Shown piece after piece: positions 45,196-59,232 of a DNA stretch of 64,000 nt. The notes beneath the pieces were generated by a model that saw nothing but the letters and a program-made list of their open reading frames with translations, did not search any database and was not told where the DNA came from. Every line of letters begins with the position of its first letter. Within the stretch, counting starts at the first letter, position 1. Origin of the DNA: Polyangiaceae bacterium (GTDB lineage Bacteria; Myxococcota_A; Polyangia; Polyangiales; Polyangiaceae); contig JAHBVY010000005.1 in assembly GCA_019637265.1 (NCBI GenBank), positions 248,001 to 312,000 on the forward strand. The letters run 5' to 3'. Made by a program: the position numbers and the translations under genes.

Positions 45196-46032
45196 TCAAG
45201 CGAGCTCGCTCAGGATGTGCTTCGCGCGGCGAAGCTCGGCCTCCAACGCCACCTGGAGCGCCACGCGGCCGCCGCCCGCGCGCTCGACGAACGCCGTGAG
45301 GTAGCGCCGCGCCACGCTCGTTTGCCCCAGCGCGTGCCCTAGCTCCCCCAGCACGAACTGACCGTAGCCACGCCCACAGGGGGCGAGCTCGAGCGCGTCG
45401 AACAGCGCCGCGAGCTCGGAGGTGGCGAGCTGCCCCGCCCGCCAACGCGCGAGGCCGAGCTGCGCTTGATACAACGGCTTGTCCCGCGTGCCCCAGCGCG
45501 CGGCGCGCGTCAGCGCACCGACGGCGCTCACGTAGTCCTCCGCGAGGTAGAGCGAGCTGCCGAGCGTCCACAGATGAAACGCTCGGCGTGAAGCGGGGCA
45601 CACGCGCGAGGCGATCCGCAAATGGTCCACGGCGCGGCGCTGATCTCCCAACCCCAAACAAGCGCGCGCCGCGTCTTGCCGCGCGACGTCCGGCATGACA
45701 CCGGTTGCGACCGCTTGGAGCGCCGTGTCGAGCGCCTCCGTGAACGCGCGACTCTCCATCTGAGACAGGTACAGCTGACGCAGCAGCAGCGCGCGCGTAT
45801 CGAGATCCACCCCGCTCGGGTGCGCGAGCCCACGCCGCGCGTACTTCGCCCGGGTGGCCGAGCTGCGAGCTCGCGAGGCGCGCACGAGGCAATCCTCAGG
45901 GGATTCCCCCGGCCTCGAAGAGCTGGGCGAGCCCAACGATGACTCCGCCACGGGGCCGGCCTTCGCCAGCGGGGGCGCGGGCGTCTCGAGAGTCGTCGGG
46001 GACTCGCCGAGCGGGTCTCGTGAGCGGGCCAT
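45196..46032 (-). CDS. TPR-like protein
   Basis: This protein of about 278 residues starts at the ATG at 46032; the frame to 46140 adds a doubtful N-terminus. The first 70 residues are Pro/Ser-rich. From about residue 85 it is helical with TPR-like pairs (RALLLRQLYLSQMESRAFTE, ARACLGLGDQRRAVDHLRIA, FHLWTLGSSLYLAEDYVSAV, LAALFDALELAPCGRGYGQF). TPRs mediate protein contacts. No signal peptide is visible, so it should be cytoplasmic. No neighbour points to a role. Confidence 0.65.
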   Translation of the reverse strand: MARSRDPLGESPTTLETPAPPLAKAGPVAESSLGSPSSSRPGESPEDCLVRASRARSSATRAKYARRGLAHPSGVDLDTRALLLRQLYLSQMESRAFTEALDTALQAVATGVMPDVARQDAARACLGLGDQRRAVDHLRIASRVCPASRRAFHLWTLGSSLYLAEDYVSAVGALTRAARWGTRDKPLYQAQLGLARWRAGQLATSELAALFDALELAPCGRGYGQFVLGELGHALGQTSVARRYLTAFVERAGGGRVALQVALEAELRRAKHILSELA

Positions 46033-46203
46033 GCGATGTATCAAGCTAGCAGCACCTGCACAACCGTCCAGTTTTCTGCATTTTCGAGCCTCGGGTCGGC
46101 GAGCTGACCTACGGCGCACGTCCCACGCGATGAAATGCACGCGGGCTCACGCGACGCGGGTTCCACGGTTGATGAGGGGGGCTGGTGGGCCTATCTATCG
46201 CGC

Positions 46204-46524
46204 GTGACGCGCACTCCCCGTTTCATCCGGCTGAAGCTGATCTCGCTCGGGGGCTGCCTGCTGGGCGCGCTCGCGGCAGGCTGCGGGGAGCCGGCGACCG
46301 AGGCGGAGTGTCAGGAGCTGGCGCAGCACATCGCGCGGCTGCGCCTCCAAGCGCGCGGCTTCGACGCCCCGGAGATCGAGCGGCGCGTGGCCGCGGCGCA
46401 GGGGGATCCGGAGTACAAGAAGACGATGGAGGGGTGCGTCGGCAAGCGCATCACCCGAAGCTCGCTCGAGTGCGTGAAGCAAGCCAAGACACCCGAAGAG
46501 GTGAAGCTGAAGTGCGCGCGCTGA
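46204..46524 (+). CDS. small lipoprotein, first of a related pair
   Basis: This 106-residue lipoprotein starts at GTG 46204 with an Arg-rich start and LISLGGCLLGALAAGC. The mature part CGEPATEAECQELAQHIARL, EYKKTMEGCVGKRITRSSLE and CVKQAKTPEEVKLKCAR is helical with several Cys. The gene at 46716 shows the same order (EPECDQLLDRYVELL, FSACSNEVSRRQYDCAM, LEQCLVF), so they are paralogues. Between them is an 81-base tandem repeat. The function is unknown; the Cys spacing suggests two disulfide-linked helices. Confidence 0.65.
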   Translation: MTRTPRFIRLKLISLGGCLLGALAAGCGEPATEAECQELAQHIARLRLQARGFDAPEIERRVAAAQGDPEYKKTMEGCVGKRITRSSLECVKQAKTPEEVKLKCAR

Positions 46525-46715: not shown

Positions 46716-47048
46716 TTGACCAAGTCCATCGAGGGGGGCTCACGACGGGCTCGCCTCGCGCAGGCGCTGTTCACCTGCTGCTTGGGGTTTTGGGGGTTGG
46801 CCTGCCAAACGAAGCTGAGCGAGCCGGAGTGCGATCAGCTGCTCGATCGCTACGTGGAGCTTTTGTCAATCGCCGATGAGCCCCAGCTCAGCGCCGACGA
46901 GCTCACACGAAGGCAACGCGAGGCGCGCACCAAGGCCGCGAGCGACCCCCGCTTCAGCGCCTGCAGCAACGAAGTGAGCCGTCGCCAATACGACTGCGCC
47001 ATGAGCGCCCCGAACGCAGACCGCCTGGAGCAGTGCTTGGTGTTCTAG
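46716..47048 (+). CDS. small lipoprotein, second of a related pair
   Basis: This protein of about 110 residues is a paralogue of the one at 46204. No ATG or GTG fits; TTG at 46716 gives an Arg-containing n-region, then LAQALFTCCLGFWGLAC as signal and lipobox. The region CLGFWGLA is encoded by a G-rich copy of the dispersed element. The mature part is helical (CDQLLDRYVELLSIADEPQL, LTRRQREARTKAASD) and has three Cys. A longer frame from 46185 runs in from the previous gene and the tandem repeat and is not used. Function unknown. Confidence 0.6.
   Translation: MTKSIEGGSRRARLAQALFTCCLGFWGLACQTKLSEPECDQLLDRYVELLSIADEPQLSADELTRRQREARTKAASDPRFSACSNEVSRRQYDCAMSAPNADRLEQCLVF
46784..46806 (-). repeat. 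dispersed element copy in a lipoprotein signal sequence
   Basis: The plus strand reads GGGGTTTTGGGGGTTGGCCT then GCC. It encodes GFWGLAC, the hydrophobic core and lipobox of the lipoprotein starting at 46716. Confidence 0.6.
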
Positions 47049-47238: not shown

Positions 47239-47838
47239 ATGAGGGGTTCGTGTTTGGTTTTGGTTATCGGGTCCGTGATGGCTGCGTGCACGCCAGCGAC
47301 GAACCCTGGCGCTGATGGCGCGAGCACGAGCACCGCCACCCTCGCCGAGCAGGATCCCGCGCAACCTGCGGCGCCAAGCCCCGTGAATACCGAGGCGCCG
47401 GCAGCCCCCGCAGCAGGGTCAGGGGAGCTCCCCATCGCGGACCTCACCAGCCTCACGCTGAAGTTCAGCGGCCCACCCGTGGCGCCGGCCTACTTCCGTG
47501 GCTACGTGACGGTCTACAAACCAGGTGAGCTGAAGCGCGAGGTCACCGGCCCGGGGCGCGACAAGAAGCGCAACGATGAACAGGCGCTCGACGCGGAGGG
47601 TCAAGCGAAGCTCGAGCAGGCGCTGAAGACCCGCGGTCTCAAGGAGCAGCCGGAGCCGGAAGATCGCGGGTGCTCGGGCGGCGTCACCTACACCCTGGAG
47701 CTGACCTACGCGGGGCAACCCCCGAAGAAGCTGCGGAGCTACCTCTGCGCGGGTGAGGCCAACGGTACCCTCGGCGGAGACATCCAGGGGTTCGAGAGCG
47801 ACGTGAACGCGCTGTTCAGCACCCCGCTCCCTTGGTAG
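47239..47838 (+). CDS. lipoprotein with C-rich beta domain
   Basis: This 199-residue lipoprotein has a signal GSCLVLVIGSVMAAC. The ATG at 47239 has GGAGGA eight bases upstream, preferred over the GTG just before. A Pro/Ala linker of about 50 residues precedes a domain of about 140 residues with SLTLKFSGPPVAPAYFRGYV, KLEQALKTRGLKEQPEPEDR, GCSGGVTYTLELTYAGQ and YLCAGEANGTLGGDIQGFES. The next gene carries a domain with the same closing pattern (GCGGGTTYTLRLV, IYLCEEPPHGTLGGDVEGFV), so the two are related. The family is not recognised. Confidence 0.7.
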   Translation: MRGSCLVLVIGSVMAACTPATNPGADGASTSTATLAEQDPAQPAAPSPVNTEAPAAPAAGSGELPIADLTSLTLKFSGPPVAPAYFRGYVTVYKPGELKREVTGPGRDKKRNDEQALDAEGQAKLEQALKTRGLKEQPEPEDRGCSGGVTYTLELTYAGQPPKKLRSYLCAGEANGTLGGDIQGFESDVNALFSTPLPW

Positions 47839-47870
47839 CGCGACGCGCGAAAGCAAAGTGACGAACCGCC

Positions 47871-48857
47871 ATGACCCTACCATCCGTCCTCCGCGCTTTC
47901 CTCGTCGCCTCCCTCGCCGCCTGCGCGTGTGATCCACAGACAGCATCGCCGCCCACCGAGCCAGGCCCGCCAGGCGAAGCACAGCCGAGCCAGGCCGCGC
48001 CCACACCGAGCGTCGCGCCCACACCGAGCGTCGCGCCGCCCGAGCCCGGGGCGCTCACCCAGCTCGTGTTTCGGGACGCTGAGCAGCCCGAGCAGGGCAC
48101 CACCTTCACCTATGAGGGGGGCGTGCTCACTCGCGCGCGCGCCTTCAAGGACGCCGCCCCCGAGCGCACGGAGCGCAAGCTGACGCAAGAGCAGCGAGCG
48201 GCGCTCCAGCAAGCGCTCGTGGAGTTGGGCCTGAACGAGGCGAAGGAGGCCGCCAAGGAGCCGCAACGCAGCTTATCGGCGGATGACTACTGCGGGCCGC
48301 GCTACTGGCTCGAACTGACGCGCCAGGGCCAGCCCCAGGTGAAGCTGCAAACGGGCCAGTGCGGCGCTCCAGCTCAGGATGGCGACTTCATCACCTTCGA
48401 GCGTCGGCTCCACGACCACTTCATCGAGCCCCTCGACCTGGAGGCCGCCTCGGAGCTCCACCTGTCCATCAACGCGGCCGCTCGCTTCCCCTCGTACGCT
48501 ATCGACCTGATGCGTAAGGAGCTGAAGCTCACTGCCGACAGCCGCAGCGCGCCGCGGGTGATCCAGCTCAGCGCCGCTGAGCGCGAGCGCATCTTGGGCG
48601 CGTTCAGAGCGCGCAAGCTGAGAGAGCAGTTCACGCGCGAGCTGCGGGGCTTGGAGGCCATCGGCTGTGGTGGCGGCACGACCTACACGCTGCGCCTCGT
48701 CCGGCAGGACAAGCCGGACATCAAGCACTCCATCTACCTGTGTGAGGAGCCGCCCCACGGGACCTTGGGCGGCGACGTGGAGGGGTTCGTGAAGGATCTC
48801 GACGCCCTCATCGCCCCCCACCTGAAGGGCGCGGCGCCCTCATCCTCCGGGAAGTAG
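47871..48857 (+). CDS. lipoprotein, two-domain relative of the preceding gene
   Basis: This 328-residue lipoprotein has a signal ASLAACAC and a Pro-rich linker with TPSVAPTPSVAPP. It contains two related domains: one (TQLVFRDAEQPEQGTTFTYE, YCGPRYWLELTRQGQPQVKL), then one ending GCGGGTTYTLRLVRQDKPDI and YLCEEPPHGTLGGDVEGFVK like its neighbour. It is 33 bases downstream in the same direction. It converges on the ZIP transporter gene with only one base between stops, which implies a shared or overlapping termination zone. The function is unknown. Confidence 0.7.
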   Translation: MTLPSVLRAFLVASLAACACDPQTASPPTEPGPPGEAQPSQAAPTPSVAPTPSVAPPEPGALTQLVFRDAEQPEQGTTFTYEGGVLTRARAFKDAAPERTERKLTQEQRAALQQALVELGLNEAKEAAKEPQRSLSADDYCGPRYWLELTRQGQPQVKLQTGQCGAPAQDGDFITFERRLHDHFIEPLDLEAASELHLSINAAARFPSYAIDLMRKELKLTADSRSAPRVIQLSAAERERILGAFRARKLREQFTRELRGLEAIGCGGGTTYTLRLVRQDKPDIKHSIYLCEEPPHGTLGGDVEGFVKDLDALIAPHLKGAAPSSSGK

Positions 48858-48858
48858 C

Positions 48859-49758
48859 TCAGCCGAGGGCGGTGTCCAGCAGCATCATCACGACGAAGCC
48901 GATCAAGAGGCCGCCGGTGGCGAACGCTTCGTGGCCCTTCCGGTGCGACTCGGGGATGATCTCGTGGCTCACCACGAACAGCATCGCCCCCGCCGCGAAC
49001 CCGAGCCCCCATGGGAGTAGCGACTCCGCGAAGGAGATGACCGCCGCGCCCAGCACCGCGCCCACTGGCTCGATCAACCCCGTGGCCGCGCCGAGCGCCA
49101 CCGAAGCGAGCCGTGAGTAGCCCGCCGCGAGCAGCGCCACGGCGACCACCAAGCCCTCGGGGACATCCTGGATCGCGATACCCGTCGCGAGGGTCTGCCC
49201 CGAGACGGGGCTCGAGCCGGCGTACGCCACGCCGATCGCGAGGCCCTCGGGCAGGTTGTGGAGCGCGATGGCAAACACGAACAGCCAGGTGCGCCGCAGC
49301 CGAACCTGCTCGCTCGGCCCCTCCACCCCCTTGATGAAGTGCTCGTGCGGCAGGCTCTTGTCCAAGACGAGCAAGGTCACGCCACCGAGTAAGAGCGCGG
49401 CGCCCACCGTCAGGCCGGCGCCCCAAGGCCCGCTGCCCAGCTCCCGCGCGTGCGCCAACCCCGGCACGATGAGCGAGAAGGCCGCCGCCGCCAGCATCAC
49501 TCCGGCGCCGAAGCCAAATAGTGAGTCTTGCAGCCTATCCGAGAGTCGCACCGAGAGCAGCACGGGGAGCGCGCCCAGCGCCGTGGCCAACGCCGCCACC
49601 AGGCCGGCGTGCAGCGCGCCCACCGTCGCGCGTGAGCCCGACGCGTAAGCGCCGACCACCGCTGCGAGCAAGAGCGCCAGGGGCAGCACCGTGCCTAGCC
49701 GAAAGACCTCACGGAGGCGCCAACCCCAAGGAGCCGGTGATGCGACGAGCGATTTCAT
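48859..49758 (-). CDS. ZIP-family metal transporter (GufA-like)
   Basis: This 299-residue inner-membrane protein moves divalent metals, most often Zn, into the cytoplasm. It has about eight membrane helices. The two conserved metal-site helices are LHNLPEGLAIGVAYAGSSP and IQDVPEGLVVAVALLAAGYS. A loop carries LPHEHFIKGVEGP, where family members have a His-rich segment. The style matches the GufA branch, first seen in Myxococcus. The start ATG is 12 bases after a promoter-like box (see the promoter entry), so the leader is very short. Regulation by metal is likely but no Zur box was recognised. Confidence 0.88.
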   Translation of the reverse strand: MKSLVASPAPWGWRLREVFRLGTVLPLALLLAAVVGAYASGSRATVGALHAGLVAALATALGALPVLLSVRLSDRLQDSLFGFGAGVMLAAAAFSLIVPGLAHARELGSGPWGAGLTVGAALLLGGVTLLVLDKSLPHEHFIKGVEGPSEQVRLRRTWLFVFAIALHNLPEGLAIGVAYAGSSPVSGQTLATGIAIQDVPEGLVVAVALLAAGYSRLASVALGAATGLIEPVGAVLGAAVISFAESLLPWGLGFAAGAMLFVVSHEIIPESHRKGHEAFATGGLLIGFVVMMLLDTALG

Positions 49759-50032: not shown

Positions 50033-52651
50033 TCACCGCTTCGCCCGCTCGCCCAGGTAGGCCACCACCTCCGCGATGTCCACCGCCGCGTCCAGCAAGG
50101 TGGCGTAGGGATCGCCGAGCTCGGCGACGCGCAGTGGCACGGTCGACAGCGTGAACTCGCTGGGGTCGAGCGCCAGCGACAGCTCCTCCCACGCGAGCGG
50201 TGTGCTCACCGTCGCGCGTGGCGCCGCGCGCAGCGAGTACGGCGCGACGATGGTGCGGGAGCGCCCGTTCTGAACGGTGTCCACGTACACCCTCCCGCCG
50301 CGCGCGCCCACTCGCCGCTCCATCGTGGCGAGCTCCGGGTGCCGCTGACACAGGAGGCGCCCGATCAGCTCCGCCAAGAGCCTCGCGGTCTCGAACGAGA
50401 CGCCCGGCCCGAGCGGCGCGAGCACGTGGAGCCCCGACTGCCCGCTCGTCTTGGGGTAACCCGTGAGGCCCACCTCTTCGAGCAGCTCGCGCAAGGACAG
50501 CGCCAAGATCACGGCGTGCGCGAACGGTTGCCCCCCGAGATCGAAGTCAAAGGTGATGAAGTCACAGCTCTCGAGCGAGCCCTCGCGCCGCGAGAGCACG
50601 TGGATGACGATGCACCCGAGGTTGGCGAGGTGGAGCAGACCATCCGCGTCGTCCACCAAGAAGGTGACGCCCCGGCGCTCCTCGTCTTCCCTCGGGAGCC
50701 GCAGCGTGCGCATCCAAGGTGGCGTCCCCTTCGGCGCGTTCCACTGGAAGAAGCTCTTGCCCGCGATTCCATCAGGATACCGAACCAATACCACGGGGCG
50801 CCCGGCGAGGAACGGGAGCAGGGCGTCGGCGACCGACGCGTAGTATTCGCAGAGGTCGCCCTTGGTGTAGCCAGCGTCAGGCCAGTAGACCTTCTGTTGG
50901 TTGGTCAAGGCCACGCGCCCAGCGAGGCGCTCTTGGGCAGCCGAATGGACCGAGCCACGCGCGCCGCCTGACTCGTGAGCGTCCTCCCCTGATTCGGCCG
51001 CCTCGTCTCCAGCGGACAACGGGCGCTCGAGGCTGGCAGCTCCCGGCCGCGCGTCGCAGTCCTCCGGATCGACGTCGCTGCGCAGACCACGGAACACCGG
51101 GAAGCGCAGCGACCCAGAGTCGGACCAACCGAGGTAGCGCACGCTCGCCACCAGCTCGGGCGAAGCAAAATGACGCTCCATCGGCGCCGCCGGCAGCTCC
51201 CCTTCGGCAGGGCAGCTCGGCACCTCGATCGCGCGCAAGCGCTCGAGCAAGTCGGTCTGCGTCGCCTCGCTCAAGCCCGAGCCCGCCTTGCCGCGCAGCA
51301 CGAGGCGCCCCCCTTCGTAGCTCGCCAACAAGAGCGCCCCCAACGTACGCGAGGCGCGCTTGCGCTCCCACCCCACGATCACGAATTCGGCGTCTCGCTC
51401 GGTCTTGATCTTCACCCAGTCGGTGAGCCGCTTGGGCCCTGGATGGTAAGTTGAATCGACCTTTTTGGCGACCACCCCCTCGAGCCCCGCCTGCTGACAC
51501 AGCTGGTAGAGCGGCTCACCCTGCGCCTCGATGTGCGCGAGCACCCTGAGCCTACCTGTGCCAGGCAGCAGGCTACCGAGCAGCTCCTTGCGCACGGAGA
51601 GCGGCAACCCCGTGAGATCGTAGTCGCCGATCGCGAGCAGATCGAACACCACGTACACCACCGGTACGTCGCGGATCAAACGCTCCACGTCCCTGGGCCG
51701 CGTCGCGTGGATGCGGCGCGCCAGGCGCTCGAAGCTCGGCTTGCCTTCATCATCGAAGCTGACGATTTCACCGTCGAGCACCACCCGCTCGGGCGCGAGC
51801 GCCCGCACCGCCCGCACGATCTCCGGGAAGGCGGCCGTCGCCGCGCGCTGTTTCCGATACCGCAGGGAAACATCCTGCCCCGAGCGATCGGCGATCACGC
51901 GGACCCCATCGAGCTTCAGCTCGTAGAGGCGATCCGCCTCACTGAGACCAGCGCCCTCGGAGGCGCACAGCATGGGCGCGAGCTTGCTCGCGTCGAGGGC
52001 TCGCGCCAGCGCGCCCAGCCCCTTCGCGCAGTCGGCGAGCGCCTGGGCGATGGCGGAGCGCGTGAGGAGCTGCTCCACACGTAAGCTAGACAGCACGCTG
52101 TAGGGCTGCTGGGCAGTGATGTCCGCCTCCTGACAGGAGGCGTCTGCCTTCTTCAAGAGCAGCCACTGCCGCTGCTTCGGGGGCGGCACCTGGCGCTGCC
52201 CCGTCTCCACCAGCGCGAAGCGCCCCTTCAGCTTGTAGCCCTCGAGCCAGAGGTCGATCTTCCCCTTCGCGAGGCCCCCCTCGACCGTATCCTCGAGGTA
52301 ACGAACGACCCCAGTGTCCCACACGATCATCGGACCCGCGCCATAATTTCCGTCCGGAATCACGTCCTCGAACTCGAGGTAGGCGAGCGGGTGATTCTCC
52401 GTTTGCACCGCCAGCCGCTTGTCCGCCGGGTTCAAGCTGGGGCCGCGCGGCACCGCGAAGCTGAGCAGCGTGCCGCCGATCTGGATCCGCAGATCGTAGT
52501 GCTCACGCCGCGCGCCGTGCAGGTGCACCACGAAGGCGCCGACGCGGGTGCCCCCCTCGTAGCCTGCCTGCCCGAAGGGCTCGTTGGTGGTCTTGGGATC
52601 ACGCTTCTCGCGATAGGTCGCGAGCGGATCGGGCCCCTTCGCCTTAGCCAC
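50033..52651 (-). CDS. ligD: NHEJ DNA ligase LigD (phosphoesterase, ligase, polymerase)
   Basis: This 872-residue protein repairs double-strand breaks with Ku. The 3'-phosphoesterase domain is N-terminal (HLHGARREHYDLRIQIGG, ENHPLAYLEFEDVIPDGNYG). The ATP-dependent ligase follows with the nucleotidyl Lys246 in YELKLDGVRVIADR, then GVVAKKVDSTYHPGP. A C-terminal Prim-Pol domain starts near residue 610 (LTNQQKVYWPDAGYTKGD, CDFITFDFDLGGQPFAHAV, YPKTSGQSGLHVLAPLGPG). Domain order is PE-LIG-POL. The start overlaps the Smr gene stop by eight bases. All three enzymatic domains appear complete. Confidence 0.95.
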   Translation of the reverse strand: MAKAKGPDPLATYREKRDPKTTNEPFGQAGYEGGTRVGAFVVHLHGARREHYDLRIQIGGTLLSFAVPRGPSLNPADKRLAVQTENHPLAYLEFEDVIPDGNYGAGPMIVWDTGVVRYLEDTVEGGLAKGKIDLWLEGYKLKGRFALVETGQRQVPPPKQRQWLLLKKADASCQEADITAQQPYSVLSSLRVEQLLTRSAIAQALADCAKGLGALARALDASKLAPMLCASEGAGLSEADRLYELKLDGVRVIADRSGQDVSLRYRKQRAATAAFPEIVRAVRALAPERVVLDGEIVSFDDEGKPSFERLARRIHATRPRDVERLIRDVPVVYVVFDLLAIGDYDLTGLPLSVRKELLGSLLPGTGRLRVLAHIEAQGEPLYQLCQQAGLEGVVAKKVDSTYHPGPKRLTDWVKIKTERDAEFVIVGWERKRASRTLGALLLASYEGGRLVLRGKAGSGLSEATQTDLLERLRAIEVPSCPAEGELPAAPMERHFASPELVASVRYLGWSDSGSLRFPVFRGLRSDVDPEDCDARPGAASLERPLSAGDEAAESGEDAHESGGARGSVHSAAQERLAGRVALTNQQKVYWPDAGYTKGDLCEYYASVADALLPFLAGRPVVLVRYPDGIAGKSFFQWNAPKGTPPWMRTLRLPREDEERRGVTFLVDDADGLLHLANLGCIVIHVLSRREGSLESCDFITFDFDLGGQPFAHAVILALSLRELLEEVGLTGYPKTSGQSGLHVLAPLGPGVSFETARLLAELIGRLLCQRHPELATMERRVGARGGRVYVDTVQNGRSRTIVAPYSLRAAPRATVSTPLAWEELSLALDPSEFTLSTVPLRVAELGDPYATLLDAAVDIAEVVAYLGERAKR

Positions 52652-52952
52652 GCTCGTCGCTCGGCGTCGCGAGCCAGGCGAGCGTCGCGCCCCAACCGCC
52701 GCGCGTCGCGGGGGCGTCCTTGAAGCTCACGACGAACGGGCTCCGCGCCAGCGCCGCGTGCACCCGCGCCCGCTGCACCCCCTTGCCGCGGCCATGGATC
52801 AACCTCACCTCGTGAAAGCCCTGCTCACAAGCCGCCTCCACGTAGTCAGCCACCACGTCAGGGATGTCTCGAGGCTGGAACGTGTGGAGGTCGATGCTGT
52901 CCTCGATCGCGAGCACCACCACGTCCTCATCGTCGCTCATATTATCAGTCAT
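52644..52952 (-). CDS. small Smr-domain protein
   Basis: This 102-residue protein is a stand-alone Smr domain. The N-terminus EDSIDLHTFQPRDIPDVVADY gives the DLHxF block and the central VRLIHGRGKGVQRARVHAAL gives the HGRGKG motif. It ends GATLAWLATPSDERG. Smr domains in MutS2 have DNA-nicking activity. The gene lies between ku and ligD in one leftward run and overlaps ligD, so a role in end processing during break repair is a good inference but unproven. An ATG at 52940 is an alternative start. Confidence 0.85.
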   Translation of the reverse strand: MTDNMSDDEDVVVLAIEDSIDLHTFQPRDIPDVVADYVEAACEQGFHEVRLIHGRGKGVQRARVHAALARSPFVVSFKDAPATRGGWGATLAWLATPSDERG

Positions 52953-53070
52953 GATGATGGTTGGGGTCGGGGGATTCTGTCAGGTGTGCTGATCAGCGTC
53001 ACCCCCGAGCCTCACGCGGCGACCGATGGTCAGCTCACGTTCCGCGGCGATGCCCCAAGGGGTGGTGCGC

Positions 53071-53958
53071 TCAGCTCGCCGCCGCCTTCTTCCCACGCCC
53101 GGTCGAGCCCTTGGCGCTCTTGGCCTTCGCCTTCTTCACGGTCGGCTCCGCGTCCGCGTCCCCCTCCGCGGCGCTTTCCTTCGCCTCCACCCCCTTGGCG
53201 AGGCTCGCCTTCAGCGCCTCCATCAAGTCGATGACCTGCGCCTTGGGCTGCTCCGGCGCCACCTGGATCTCCTGCCCGGCCACCTTCTGATCGACCGCCT
53301 CGAGCACCCGCTTGGCGTAGGCGTCCTCGAAGCGCTCCGGATCGAATTGCTCCCCCGTGAGCTGATCGAGCAGCTTGTCTGCCAAGTCTTGCTCCGCCTC
53401 GCTGAACTTGAACGTCGCGCCGCGCTCCACGTCCTCGAAGGCGCGCACCTCACCGGCGTAGAACAGCTGATGCAAGATCAAGCCGTCCTGGTAGGGCCGC
53501 AGCATCACCAGCTGCTCCTTGCCGCGCGCCGCCCAGCGCCCCACCGCGACGCGGCCCTTGCGCTCCATCGCCTCCGCCAAGAGCCGGTACGGCTTGTCGC
53601 CGCCCTTGTCGGGGCCGATGTAGTAGCTCTTCTCCACCTGGATGAAGTCCACCGTCTCGAGCGGCACGAACTCCACGATCTCGAGCAGGCTGCTGCGCTC
53701 CGCCTCGAGCTGCTTCAGCTCTTCGTCAGTGAAGGTGACATACTGGCCTTTGGAGTACTCATAGCCCTTCACCAAGTCAGCTCGGCTCACCTCCACGTCG
53801 CACGTGGGGCAGCGCAGCTGCTGCTTGATGCGACCCCCGCACTCGCTGTGGAGTTGGTTGAAGCTCACCGACTGACTCGACGTCGCCGTGTAGAGCTTGA
53901 TGGGGATGGAGACGAGGCCAAAGCTGATGGTCCCGGAGCCGGTCGCGCGCGCTGCCAT
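53071..53958 (-). CDS. ku: Ku protein for non-homologous end joining
   Basis: This 295-residue protein binds DNA ends as a homodimer and recruits LigD. The N-terminus ATGSGTISFGLVSIPIKLYT and blocks NQLHSECGGRIKQQLRCPTC, KGYEYSKGQYVTFTDEELKQ and EKSYYIGPDKGGDKPYRLLA are those of bacterial Ku. The C-terminus is a Lys/Ala-rich tail (VKKAKAKSAKGSTGRGKK) that may contact DNA. It is first in the leftward run ku-smr-ligD, with a 118-base spacer before smr. Identification is secure. Confidence 0.96.
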   Translation of the reverse strand: MAARATGSGTISFGLVSIPIKLYTATSSQSVSFNQLHSECGGRIKQQLRCPTCDVEVSRADLVKGYEYSKGQYVTFTDEELKQLEAERSSLLEIVEFVPLETVDFIQVEKSYYIGPDKGGDKPYRLLAEAMERKGRVAVGRWAARGKEQLVMLRPYQDGLILHQLFYAGEVRAFEDVERGATFKFSEAEQDLADKLLDQLTGEQFDPERFEDAYAKRVLEAVDQKVAGQEIQVAPEQPKAQVIDLMEALKASLAKGVEAKESAAEGDADAEPTVKKAKAKSAKGSTGRGKKAAAS

Positions 53959-54058
53959 GTGCGTATGCTACGGGCGCCGGACGGGGGGTCCAAGATCCAG
54001 GCGGTGCCACCCAGGGTGAGGAGCCGAGCGCTGCACGTCGGTGCAGTGGGCTGCGGCG

Positions 54059-54141
54059 TTCCCAACCCCCAAAACCCCGATCCCACGACGCTGCTGAGCC
54101 CCAGGCAACACCGCCTTCGCGCCAACCCCCAACCCCGATCC
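54059..54141 (+). repeat. two dispersed element copies near ku
   Basis: TTCCCAACCCCCAAAACCCC then GATCC is at 54059-54083 and GCCAACCCCCAACCCCGATC then C is at 54121-54141. Both end GATCC, so they may be a local duplication. They lie between the divergent ku gene and the gene at 54339. Confidence 0.6.
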
Positions 54142-54338
54142 TCATGGCGCGCTCGCGCCGAGCTCCATTCCCACGCGGCTTATCCCGCAGCGCGCGAACA
54201 CTTGCTCCACCGTACCCCATCGCTCCGAAGCGGTCGGTTTGTTGGCCCAGCTCACCAGCCTCCGCTAGCCCCTCTGGAGGCGCTGGGCCGAGCTTCACAG
54301 GACACGGAGGAGCTTCACCGAGCGCGGAGGTGCGAGCC

Positions 54339-54815
54339 ATGGAAGTCAACCCTCGCGGGCGCGCGACGCTGGTGGTGATCGAGTTCGGGGGCAGCTGGCC
54401 TGCCTGGCTCGATCCGAGCGCGGCGAGCGCGGTAGGCGGCGCGCTCGCGGTGGTGGCGCAGCACTACGAGGGGCACCCGAGCGAGCTCTTGACCCAGGTG
54501 GCGAGCCGTATTTCCCGATTGGAAAATGGTGACTGGCGCCTGGGGCGCATCGTGCTGGTGAGCAACGGGCGGGTGGACCCGGGGGCGGAGACCAGCCGCG
54601 CGGTGCTGTGCCGAGCGCTGCTCACCCATGGGCTCGGGGCGGGGCTCAGCGAGCTGATCTTGACCCACGGCTACACCGACGATCGGCGCGTGGAGCGCGG
54701 CCTGAATCGCCTCGTCAACACGCTGAGCGCGGAGCCGGATTTTTTGCGGGTTCGTGTGAGCCATCGTGGCCCCGCGGCGCGGCAGGAGCTGCGCGCCGCC
54801 GTACGCGCCATGTGA
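54339..54815 (+). CDS. conserved cytoplasmic protein, function unknown
   Basis: This 158-residue protein starts at ATG 54339, with GGAGGTG correctly placed; the frame open to 54144 is upstream noise. It begins MEVNPRGRATLVVIEFGGSW and continues through HPSELLTQVASRISRLENGD, RIVLVSNGRVDPGAETSRAV, LTHGLGAGLSELILTHGYTD and LVNTLSAEPDFLRVRVSHRG. The alternation of strands and helices suggests an alpha/beta fold with a Ser/Asn/Gly-rich nucleotide-binding turn. I do not recognise a family. It lies between ku and mutS2 and may be unrelated to repair. Confidence 0.6.
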   Translation: MEVNPRGRATLVVIEFGGSWPAWLDPSAASAVGGALAVVAQHYEGHPSELLTQVASRISRLENGDWRLGRIVLVSNGRVDPGAETSRAVLCRALLTHGLGAGLSELILTHGYTDDRRVERGLNRLVNTLSAEPDFLRVRVSHRGPAARQELRAAVRAM

Positions 54816-54953
54816 GGCGCCTCGCCCCAAACAATACGCTCGCCGCACCTCCCGCTGACTAGCGTTGGGAGCAGCGCTGCCGTCCTCAGCGACCACCGCC
54901 TAGCCGCTCGCGAGCTCTGGCGCGCGCTCGGAAACGTGGCATGACGCGGCGCC

Positions 54954-57386
54954 ATGTCCGCCGAACTCGACGCCCTCCGCGCGCGCGCTGAGACGGACCT
55001 CGAGTGGCCTGCGCTGTGCGCCGAGCTGGCGAGCCTGGCCGCGAGCCCCGATGGTGCCGAGCGCCTCGCCCAGCTGAAGCCCGAGACCGAGCGCGAGCTC
55101 GCCCTGCAGCGCGCGCGGCTCACCCAGGCGGCCTTGGCCGCGGAGACAGCCGGCCTGACGGTGCCCTCCCTCGCCACGCCGAGCGCCCAGGGCTGCCTCG
55201 ACAACGCCAGGCGACGCCGCGTCCTCGGCGCCGGGGAGCTGTATCAGCTGCGGCTGCTCGCGGAGGGGGCCGCCGCGCTGCGCCGCTTCGCCGCCGCCTG
55301 CGCCGAGCGTCAGCCGGAGCTGGCCGAGTGGCTCATGACCGCGAAGGAGCTCGAGCCCTTCGCTCAGGAGCTGGCGCGCTGCCTGGATCCAGAGGGCGGC
55401 CTCCAAGATCACGCGAGCCCCGAGCTCCGCAGAGCGCGCGTCACCGCGCGCGACCGGAGGCGCGATCTCCAGATCAAGCTCACGCGCCTCGTGAGCCGCT
55501 ACGAGAGCCGCCTCTCCGGCGCCTACTACGCCGAGCGCGACGGGCGCTACGTGCTGCCGGTGCGTTCAGATTCCCACGGAGAAATCGAGGGCAGCGTGCT
55601 CGGCTCGAGCGGCTCCGGCGCCACGCTCTACGTCGAGCCGCGCGAGCTGGTGGAGCTGGGGAGCAAGCTGCGCCTCGCCGAGGCGGCGGTGGAGCGTGAG
55701 GAGGCGCGCGTGCTGGCGCTGCTCTCATCACAGGCATGGGATCTGACTAGTCAGCTAGACGAAGCCTATGAAGCTGGGCTCGAAGCGGAGCGGCTGGTCG
55801 CCATGCTGCGCTTCGCGGCGCGCTTCACGGCGCGCTTGATCGTCCCCTCGGCTGAGCCGCGCATCGAGCTCCACAGCGCGCGCCACCCGCTGCTCCTGGC
55901 GCGTGGCGCGGAGGTGGTGCCGGGGGACATCCGACTTCGCGCGGGGGAGGCGCTCGTCATCTCCGGCCCCAACGCGGGTGGGAAGACGGTGGCGCTCAAG
56001 TGCCTCGGGCTGGCGGCGCTGATGGTGCGCGCCGGGGTGCCCGTCCCTGCGGAGGCGGGCAGCGAGGTGGGCTTCTTCCCGGAGGTGGTGAGTGACATCG
56101 GCGACGATCAGTCGCTGGCGCTCGACCTCAGCACCTTCAGCGGCCACATCCAGCACGTCGCCGCCATGATCGCGCTCGCTCGAAGCGAGGGCAGCGCGGT
56201 GCTGGTGCTGCTCGATGAGCTCGCGGCAGGTACGGATCCTGACCAAGGCGCCGCGCTCGCCACCGCCTGCCTCACGGCGCTGGTGGAGGCGGGCGCCGCC
56301 GTGGCGGTCACGACGCACTACGAGGCGCTGAAGCAGCTCGGCGCCGGTGACGCGCGCTTCCAGAACGCGTCGGTCGGCTTCGACCTCGAGAGCTTGGCGC
56401 CCACCTTCGAGTTTCGCATCGGCATCCCAGGGCCTTCGAGCGCGCTGGCGGTGGCGCGGCGCTTCGGGATCCCTATGGAGGTGGTCGCGCGCGCCGAGGC
56501 GCTCCTCCCCGAGCAGCGCCTCGCCCGTGACGCGCTGCTCGCGAAGATCAGCTCGGATGCGCGCGCCGCGGAGGAGGCAGCACGGCGCGCCCTGGCGCTC
56601 GAGTCGGACGCGCGCCTCGCCGCGAGCCGCCTCGAGGCGGAGACGAAGCGCGCCACGGAGCGTGAGCGCGAGCGACTGACGCGCGAGGCCCGCGCGCTGG
56701 GCCAAGCGGTGCAGGAGGCGCGCGCGATGCTCGCGGCGGTGACCCAGCGGCTCAGGCAAGAGACGCCTAGCCGTGAGGAAATACGCCAGCTAGGGCGCCA
56801 GGTGGACGAGGCGGCGCGCCAGCTCAGCCTGGGCTCGCCGCTCCAGCGCGCGGCTCAGGCGCCTGCCACCCCGCTGAAGCCGGCGGAGCTCAGCGTCGGC
56901 GCGCAGGTGACGGTGCTACCCGGCGGGCACCTCGGGAAGATCCTCGAGGTGGACCGTCGCGGTAAGCTGCGGGTCCAGGTAGGTAACCTGACGCTCACCT
57001 GCAGCGCGAGCGACCTGCGCGCCCCCTCGAGCGAAGAGGCCAAGCGCGCGCGTGAGGCGCAGCGCGAACAGCCTCAAGCAAGACCGCGGAGCCGCGCGAA
57101 GGAGCCGCCCGAGCCCCGCGCGCCCAGCGTGGCGGTGCGCTACCCCGGCAACACCTGCGACCTCCGCGGCGTCCGCGTCGAAGCCGGGCTCGAGCAGCTA
57201 GACAGCTTTTGTGACGAGCTGCTCCGCCGCGGCGAGCCCGTCGGCTTCGTGCTCCACGGCCACGGCACCGGCGCCATGAAGGAGGCCGTCCGTGAGCACC
57301 TGAGCGCCGCGCCCTACGTCTCGAAGGCGCGCCCCGCCTCCCGCGAAGAGGGCGGCGACGCGTACACCGTGCTCTGGTTGACTTAG
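54954..57386 (+). CDS. mutS2: MutS2-type protein with C-terminal Smr domain
   Basis: This 810-residue protein is a MutS2 homologue. The core clamp region (RRDLQIKLTRLVSRYESRLS, YVLPVRSDSHGEIEGSVLGS) leads to the ATPase with Walker A ISGPNAGGKTVALKCLGLAA and the later LVLLDELAAGTDPDQGAALA. A coiled segment follows (LEAETKRATERERERLTREA) and the Smr domain closes the protein (NTCDLRGVRVEAGLEQLDSF, VGFVLHGHGTGAMKEAVREH). MutS2 suppresses recombination and may rescue collided ribosomes. A second Smr protein is encoded nearby at 52644-52952. Identification is secure. Confidence 0.95.
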   Translation: MSAELDALRARAETDLEWPALCAELASLAASPDGAERLAQLKPETERELALQRARLTQAALAAETAGLTVPSLATPSAQGCLDNARRRRVLGAGELYQLRLLAEGAAALRRFAAACAERQPELAEWLMTAKELEPFAQELARCLDPEGGLQDHASPELRRARVTARDRRRDLQIKLTRLVSRYESRLSGAYYAERDGRYVLPVRSDSHGEIEGSVLGSSGSGATLYVEPRELVELGSKLRLAEAAVEREEARVLALLSSQAWDLTSQLDEAYEAGLEAERLVAMLRFAARFTARLIVPSAEPRIELHSARHPLLLARGAEVVPGDIRLRAGEALVISGPNAGGKTVALKCLGLAALMVRAGVPVPAEAGSEVGFFPEVVSDIGDDQSLALDLSTFSGHIQHVAAMIALARSEGSAVLVLLDELAAGTDPDQGAALATACLTALVEAGAAVAVTTHYEALKQLGAGDARFQNASVGFDLESLAPTFEFRIGIPGPSSALAVARRFGIPMEVVARAEALLPEQRLARDALLAKISSDARAAEEAARRALALESDARLAASRLEAETKRATERERERLTREARALGQAVQEARAMLAAVTQRLRQETPSREEIRQLGRQVDEAARQLSLGSPLQRAAQAPATPLKPAELSVGAQVTVLPGGHLGKILEVDRRGKLRVQVGNLTLTCSASDLRAPSSEEAKRAREAQREQPQARPRSRAKEPPEPRAPSVAVRYPGNTCDLRGVRVEAGLEQLDSFCDELLRRGEPVGFVLHGHGTGAMKEAVREHLSAAPYVSKARPASREEGGDAYTVLWLT

Positions 57387-57426: not shown

Positions 57427-57831
57427 GTGCTGCCGGGTTCGCTCCGTGAGGTGATTCGCGCCGCGCTCTCGGCCACTCCGGGGCTCGAGCTCGGGTTCGT
57501 CTTCGGCTCCGTCGCACGCGGCACCACCGGGCCTGGCTCCGATCTCGACGTGGCGGTGTTCGGCACCGTCGACACCCTCGAGCTCGCTGGGCGCCTCTCG
57601 CTCGCGACCGATCGAGAGGTGGACATCGTCAAACTCGAAGACGCTCCCATCCCCCTGCTCGAGGCGATCCTCAGCGAGGGGATCGCGCTCTTCGAACGCG
57701 AGCCTGGCGCCGAGGCGAGCTTTCGCTCCCGCACGCTGCTGATGCTCGAGATAGACAGGTCGCTATACGATCGCATGCACGAGGCGTGGCTCACGCGGGT
57801 GGCAGAGCGAGGGATCCTTGGTCAATCGTAG
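57427..57831 (+). CDS. mntA: MntA-type nucleotidyltransferase (antitoxin)
   Basis: This 134-residue protein is a minimal nucleotidyltransferase. GSVARGTTGPGSDLDVAVF contains the GSx10DxD motif (Gly27-Ser28, Asp39, Asp41). In HepT/MntA toxin-antitoxin pairs it adds AMP to the HEPN toxin. The next gene overlaps it by 14 bases and encodes the HEPN partner, which confirms the pair. GTG starts the gene, with no clear ribosome site. The pair may come from horizontal transfer, although base composition is like its surroundings. Confidence 0.85.
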   Translation: MLPGSLREVIRAALSATPGLELGFVFGSVARGTTGPGSDLDVAVFGTVDTLELAGRLSLATDREVDIVKLEDAPIPLLEAILSEGIALFEREPGAEASFRSRTLLMLEIDRSLYDRMHEAWLTRVAERGILGQS

Positions 57832-58243
57832 GCTCGTGATGACTCAGCTGGCTGAGCTGGCCGAGCGAGTGGCTCGCGCGCAGGCACACGCGAAGCCGAG
57901 CGCCGAGGCGCTCGCTGCGGATCGAGACGCGTTCGATCTGGTGTCCTTCAACCTCATGCTGGCCGTCCAGTCGTGCGCGAGCGTCGCGAGCCACCTCATC
58001 GCAGACGAGGGCTGGGCGCCCACCAGTACGGTCGCCGCTAGTTTCGCGCGACTCGCGGAGCACGACGTGATCCGTCAAGAGACCGCGCAGGCGCTGACGC
58101 GAGCCGTGGGACTGCGAAACGTCGTAGCGCACGGCTACGCCAAGGTCGACCCCCAGAGCGTCCATGCAGCGGTCACCGTGGGGATCTCGGACCTCGATGC
58201 CTTCGCAGCTGAAGTGGCCGCCTGGCTAGTGGGGCGCACCTAA
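57818..58243 (+). CDS. hepT: HEPN-domain protein HepT (toxin)
   Basis: This protein of about 141 residues has the HEPN (DUF86) fold. The RNase-like motif is visible as RNVVAHGY (Arg100, His105, Tyr107), matching the Rx4HxY pattern of HepT. Helices such as LVSFNLMLAVQSCASVASHL precede it. In known pairs HepT cleaves RNA and is silenced by MntA. The gene can start at TTG 57818, GTG 57836 or ATG 57839; the first gives a 14-base overlap with mntA. It could act in phage defence or plasmid maintenance. Confidence 0.82.
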   Translation: MVNRRLVMTQLAELAERVARAQAHAKPSAEALAADRDAFDLVSFNLMLAVQSCASVASHLIADEGWAPTSTVAASFARLAEHDVIRQETAQALTRAVGLRNVVAHGYAKVDPQSVHAAVTVGISDLDAFAAEVAAWLVGRT

Positions 58244-58323: not shown

Positions 58324-59232
58324 CTACTCCGCGGCTTGGCTCGCTGGCTGCCTCAAGAGTGGGAAGCCGAGCGCCTCGCGTTGGGCGAGCCACGCGGCGG
58401 ACACGCGGCGCGCCATTTGGCGGACGCGGCCGATGAAGCGCACGCGCTCGGTGACGCTGATCGCGCCGCGCGCGTCGAGCACGTTGAACAGGTGCGAGGC
58501 CTTCACCACGAAATCGTAAGCTGGCATGACGAGCTGCTGACGTGGGTCCTCGCTGCGACCGAGCAGCCGCAGGACCTCCGCCTCGGCGTGATCGAAGGCG
58601 CTGAAGTGCGCCGCCACGTCCGCCTCCTCGAAGTTGTAGGTGGACCACTCCCACTCGTTCCGCTTGAACAGCTCCCCGTACGTCACCTGGTCGTTGTAGG
58701 TGAGGTCGTACACGGTATCCACGTCCTGGAGGTACATGGCGATGCGCTCGAGGCCGTAAGTGAGCTCACCGCTCACCGGCTTGCAGTCGAAGCCGCCCGC
58801 TTGTTGAAAGTAGGTGAACTGACTGATCTCGAGGCCGTCCAGCCACACCTGCCACCCCAGGCCCCAAGCGCCGAGCGTCGGGCTCTCCCAGTCGTCCTCC
58901 AGGAAGCGCACGTCGTGCTCGAGGGGCTTCGTGCCGATGGCCTCCAGCGACTTCAGGTACAGGTCCTGAATGTCGAGCGGGCTCGGCTTCAAGATCACCT
59001 GGAACTGATGGAACTGTTGGAGGCGGTTCGGGTTGTCACCGTAGCGACCGTCAGCCGGGCGCCGCGAAGGCTCCACGTACGCCACGTTCCACGGCTCCGG
59101 CCCCAAGCTGCGGAGGAAGGTGGCCGGGTTGAAGGTGCCAGCGCCCACCTCCGAGTTGTAAGGTTGAACGATGAGGCAACCTTGCTCGGCCCAGAACCGC
59201 TGCAGGGTGAGGATCAAGTCCTGAAAGTGCAT
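58324..59232 (-). CDS. glyQ: glycyl-tRNA synthetase alpha subunit
   Basis: This 302-residue protein is the alpha subunit of the bacterial two-subunit glycyl-tRNA synthetase. It starts [20 protein letters not shown], with GAGAGAAG upstream; the frame extends to 59334 but is not needed. Family blocks are [39 protein letters not shown] (the P reads A here: [11 protein letters not shown]), [20 protein letters not shown] and [20 protein letters not shown]. The beta subunit gene glyS usually follows; here the next genes are hepT/mntA on the other strand, so glyS is elsewhere. Identification is secure. Confidence 0.96.

Follow-up and report, generated by a model that had tools for sequence, protein, structure and literature searches.

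Genes at the locus

The window, that is, the whole stretch of 64,000 nucleotides of Polyangiaceae DNA that was analysed, holds on its reverse strand the three genes ku (53071-53958), smr (52644-52952) and ligD (50033-52651). The 295-residue Ku, whose C-terminal tail is rich in lysine, matches PF02735 (E 5.5e-51) and TIGR02772 (285.7 bits for a cut-off of 150), and a genome search returned it as the sole Ku gene of the window genome. LigD, an 872-residue protein read from a GTG start (PF13298, PF01068, PF04679, PF21686, TIGR02776), combines 3'-phosphoesterase (PE), ATP ligase and primase-polymerase (Prim-Pol) domains, each above its Pfam cut-off. On the forward strand lie U158 (54339-54815), coding for an uncharacterised protein of 158 residues with no Pfam family above cut-off and located between ku-smr and mutS2, and mutS2 itself (54954-57386), whose 810-residue product (TIGR01069, 630 bits for a cut-off of 400) has MutS_V and a C-terminal Smr domain in Pfam.

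The first-pass annotation of this DNA had reported a 102-residue stand-alone Smr protein inserted between ku and ligD, overlapping ligD by eight bases in an order unlike the plain ku-ligD pair, and a nearby MutS2 with an Smr domain of its own. These observations hold: the smr stop and the ligD GTG start share exactly 8 bases (52644-52651), smr stands between ku and ligD on one strand, and MutS2 does carry its Smr domain, though with a DLR motif where the stand-alone protein has the catalytic-type DLH. The ku stop and the smr start are 118 bp apart, an alternative internal ATG of smr would give a 98-residue product, and a promoter scan located a single weak sigma-70-like site immediately upstream of smr, which carries no weight in the interpretation.

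As in conventional bacterial end-joining loci, a single Ku and a three-domain LigD are neighbours; the window differs from them by the stand-alone smr in between and by having all three genes on one strand. A 2020 survey places 75% of conventional end-joining systems within 10 kb, and its main text does not contain the word 'Smr' (PMC7719229). Our searches of the open-access literature returned no paper combining an Smr domain with LigD and none combining myxobacteria, end joining and LigD, and among the matches listed no title or opening of an abstract paired Smr with bacterial end joining.

In the stand-alone Smr protein, PF01713 (E 3.5e-18) is the sole domain and covers residues 20-94 of 102. 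It includes a nuclease-type DxH motif, DLH (residues 21-23, 52884-52892, reverse strand), and an HGxGxG motif, HGRGKG (residues 53-58, 52779-52796, reverse strand), the latter containing the HGxG that characterizes stand-alone (family 3) Smr proteins. Across 19 aligned Smr sequences D21, L22, H23, H53, G54, G56 and G58 are invariant, and each of the 91 Smr rows has both motifs. The fold predicted for the protein, at a mean pLDDT of 85, has its best structural match in the Thermus MutS2 Smr domain 2zqe (TM 0.73/0.92, rmsd 1.0) and also matches E. coli YdaL (3qd7) and SmrB (7qgr). Since smr homologues occur throughout the phylum and the differences from the nearest relative fall mostly at third codon positions (13/18/43 at positions 1/2/3; dN 0.21, dS 1.05), smr is more than a chance reading frame. 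Its product is most likely an ordinary minimal stand-alone Smr of a widespread subfamily, a predicted nuclease with intact DLH and HGxGxG motifs whose activity we infer from these residues. With YdaL, a stand-alone (family 3) Smr protein, it shares the single Smr domain, the HGxG and the fold; in contrast to it, the window protein has a much shorter N-terminus, possesses DLH where YdaL is reported to be without the aspartate (PMC3200294), and coexists with MutS2.

Two Smr domains only were detected in the 5.7 Mb window genome, the stand-alone protein and the C-terminus of MutS2, which share a fold and are set apart by their motifs, one copy being of the catalytic type (DLH) and the other, joined to MutS domains that the stand-alone protein lacks, of the DLR type. 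Among 24 other MutS2 sequences of the family, DLR is found in 22 and DVR in two. For the B. subtilis MutS2, which has DLR, mRNA cleavage has been reported absent (PMC10897456). DLR is nevertheless compatible with DNA cleavage, because the Thermus MutS2 Smr domain, reported to have an arginine at this place, is described as a DNA endonuclease (PMC12292046, PMC3200294). MutS2 and a stand-alone Smr occur together in the window genome and in several other genomes of the family; a 2011 review describes the two as generally not coexisting, their co-presence being unusual (PMC3200294).

The ku-smr pair in the family and the phylum

The distribution of the genes was followed in 108 Polyangiaceae genomes (the family set; stand-alone Smr at E <= 2e-19) and in 377 genomes evenly drawn from the phylum (close Smr at E <= 1e-10). 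In the family, Ku is present in 75/108 genomes, stand-alone Smr in 34/108 and both in 27. Adjacent ku and smr on the same strand are found in nine of the 108, spread over five genera: G000 and G001 of the window's own genus, G007, G014, G129, G298, G022, G268 and G406. The pair, which the first-pass annotation had not proposed, is hence a real, conserved and clade-limited gene pair.

With the most plausible candidate start codons, the distance from the ku stop to the smr start is -4 bp (a GTGA overlap) in G014, G129 and G298, -8 in G022, 5 in G268, 10 in G406, 11 in G001 and 288 bp in G007. Junctions thus fall within -8 to +11 bp in seven of the nine pair genomes, the window with its 118 bp lying outside, and these short distances make a common ku-smr transcript likely.

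In the phylum sample, where Ku is encoded by 69/377 genomes and close Smr by 103/377, ku-smr adjacency is confined to the window's family. Outside the family, 24 genomes of this sample have both Ku and Smr and none shows them adjacent (0/24); two have both on one contig, megabases apart. Among the best 80 of 265 named Smr loci, many on short contigs, Ku was present in the fetched flank of seven, all belonging to this family, and among the remaining genomes with named Smr loci Ku was detected elsewhere in 18 of the 50 searched. The Ku and Smr trees are poorly resolved, with 3 label changes needed, and are compatible with a single gain of the pair as well as with several.

Orientation of ku-smr relative to ligD

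In all eight relatives with the pair, ligD is divergent and ku separates it from smr, which stands downstream on the strand of ku and has no contact with ligD in any of them. The order ku-smr-ligD on one strand is found in the window and in none of the eight. The first-pass annotation had described the three genes as an operon, whose order would be incidental should smr prove separate from ligD in all relatives; comparison with relatives upheld the linkage of ku with smr and not the trio, and by that reasoning the order is incidental. A selected three-gene operon, for which the shared strand and the 8-base overlap in the window would speak, is highly improbable, this arrangement occurring in one of nine pair genomes and the other eight having a divergent ligD that does not adjoin smr. 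As a conserved operon it was rejected (0/8 relatives).

Neighbourhood comparison delineates a block that includes TPRa (45196-46032, reverse strand; common to G001, G022, G003 and G444), whose similarity to tetratricopeptide proteins is weak and under cut-off, the small proteins Lp1 (46135-46524, forward) and Lp2 (46716-47048, forward), and, beyond mutS2, a gene at 58324-59232 (reverse; common to G001, G014, G298 and G022) which we label glyQ by its sequence rather than by a family search. U158 is kept in this block and present in 7 of 41 stretches compared, the window counted among them. The order in the window is TPRa(-), Lp1(+), Lp2(+), three extra genes, ligD(-), smr(-), ku(-), U158(+), mutS2(+), a toxin-antitoxin pair, glyQ(-), DUF72(-); in G001, read in the same direction, it is TPRa(-), Lp1(+), Lp2(+), ligD(-), ku(+), smr(+), two extra genes, U158(+), mutS2(+), glyQ(-), DUF72(-). 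The block is also backed by G022 and partly by G014 and G298. Because all shared genes outside ku-smr keep their orientation and just ku-smr is reversed, a single inversion of this two-gene unit is enough to account for the window, and the window arrangement is best read as such an event. The inverted repeats detected between 52400 and 54500 are short and imperfect and do not mark breakpoints. The block genes were not seen in 19 other mutS2 neighbourhoods of the family (L179-L197, several of them short), from which the proximity of mutS2 appears particular to this block.

A two-gene unit, ku then smr, would have arisen in one branch of the family, next to a ligD of divergent orientation, and would have been inherited there inside a block TPRa-Lp1-Lp2-ligD followed by ku-smr-U158-mutS2-glyQ. 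Its in-place inversion in the window genome would have brought ku, smr and ligD onto one strand and given rise to the 8 bases shared by smr and ligD, so that the three-gene order is best read as a by-product, with the window ligD probably dependent on the ku promoter. If nothing more than an inherited neighbourhood is involved, the locus is a caution that one local inversion can yield a same-strand trio with an 8-base overlap.

Directly after mutS2, at 57427-58243 on the forward strand, the window carries a pair resembling an MntA-like nucleotidyltransferase antitoxin and a HepT-like RNase toxin (type VII toxin-antitoxin), of which none was seen in the block of the relatives compared. Three genes at 47383-49758, between Lp2 and ligD, one of them coding for a ZIP-type metal transporter, are not at this place in the relatives examined. 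In two relatives of genus g14, a 214-residue gene product, presumably methyltransferase-like by its motif, is encoded between ligD and ku (L061 7336-7980, L063 7399-8043).

Smr and end joining

With moderate confidence, we consider that an inherited ku-smr neighbourhood, inverted in the window, is present at this locus and that the function of Smr is independent of end joining. Smr would work on its own, by cleavage or binding of RNA or DNA, and would share transcription with ku rather than belong to the end-joining machine. The independence of the two genes is suggested by genomes in which one is present without the other or away from it. In G402, a single contig carries Lp1, Lp2, smr and mutS2 in succession, no recognisable ku or ligD standing among them, and neither Ku nor the LigD Prim-Pol domain was found in this draft genome (93% complete), whose end joining may have been lost only recently. 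Conversely, G003 (draft, 98% complete) has TPRa-Lp1-Lp2-ligD-ku without smr, and its genome gave no match to the window Smr protein. Moreover, stand-alone Smr is missing from 48 of the 75 Ku-bearing genomes of the family, and in genus g15 (Polyangium) six genomes have both genes unlinked, smr lying in another conserved context in the four of six whose neighbourhoods were compared.

Co-occurrence was likewise considered. In the phylum sample Ku is present in every family genome with an Smr match at 1e-10, and over the 108 family genomes this overlap weakened: taking all 34 genomes with stand-alone Smr, the protein accompanies Ku in 27/75 and occurs in 7/33 genomes devoid of it (p 0.18), and co-occurrence was rejected as support for coupling. 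The close Smr subfamily is found in 27/75 genomes with Ku and 3/33 without (p 0.005, uncorrected for descent), an enrichment that is gone in genomes of at least 8 Mb (23/49 with Ku, 3/7 without), a comparison covering the genomes with a recorded size, of which only 7 are without Ku. Functional coupling of Smr and Ku is weakly supported.

The first-pass annotation had suggested that Smr processes ends before joining, a role that is possible and found no direct support here. As an accessory nuclease of this clade's end joining, Smr would nick or trim Ku-held ends, or remove flaps or the RNA that the LigD polymerase adds, before LigD seals, an explanation that we regard as unlikely though not negligible. 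Judged by its domains, the window LigD would supply ligase, polymerase and phosphoesterase activities without an endonuclease, for which a conserved pairing of ku with smr would offer a candidate. The translationally tight ku-smr junctions in seven of nine genomes, the movement of ku-smr as a unit in the window and the intact DLH and HGxGxG of all Smr rows are consistent with such a role, and Smr domains, including that of the stand-alone E. coli YdaL, are reported to nick plasmid DNA in vitro (PMC3200294). Functional coupling would indeed also give tight junctions kept through the rearrangement of neighbours and movement as a unit. Against it stand G402, which retains smr where Ku and LigD Prim-Pol were not found, G003 with its end-joining genes and no Smr match, the Ku-bearing family genomes devoid of stand-alone Smr, and the lack of ku-smr linkage in the 24 genomes outside the family. 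That one Polyangiaceae branch gained a third, co-translated end-joining part, a minimal DLH-type Smr acting on Ku-bound ends, is rather unlikely.

A third possibility, which we judge quite improbable, is that Smr is a translation-quality-control nuclease similar to SmrB (YfcN), its co-expression with ku serving stress or stationary phase, when DNA breaks and stalled ribosomes coincide. The window protein has the Smr fold and the catalytic-type DLH in common with SmrB, an enzyme that cuts mRNA on collided ribosomes (PMC10897456); the other Smr domain of the genome, in MutS2, is of the type reported without mRNA cleavage. However, the window protein does not have the long N-terminal extension that carries the ribosome hook of SmrB, about 19 residues preceding its domain, nor a KOW domain, and it reaches 27 bits with the NCBIfam SmrB model for a cut-off of 128. 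An independent Smr encoded next to ku by inheritance thus remains the reading that we prefer.

In Sorangium, smr lies away from ku, and a second LigD gene of divergent orientation is located 2-4 kb from it (L087 8241-12963, Sorangium cellulosum So0157-2), the gene between them being presumably, from its sequence, a sensor histidine kinase. This proximity is a probable coincidence.
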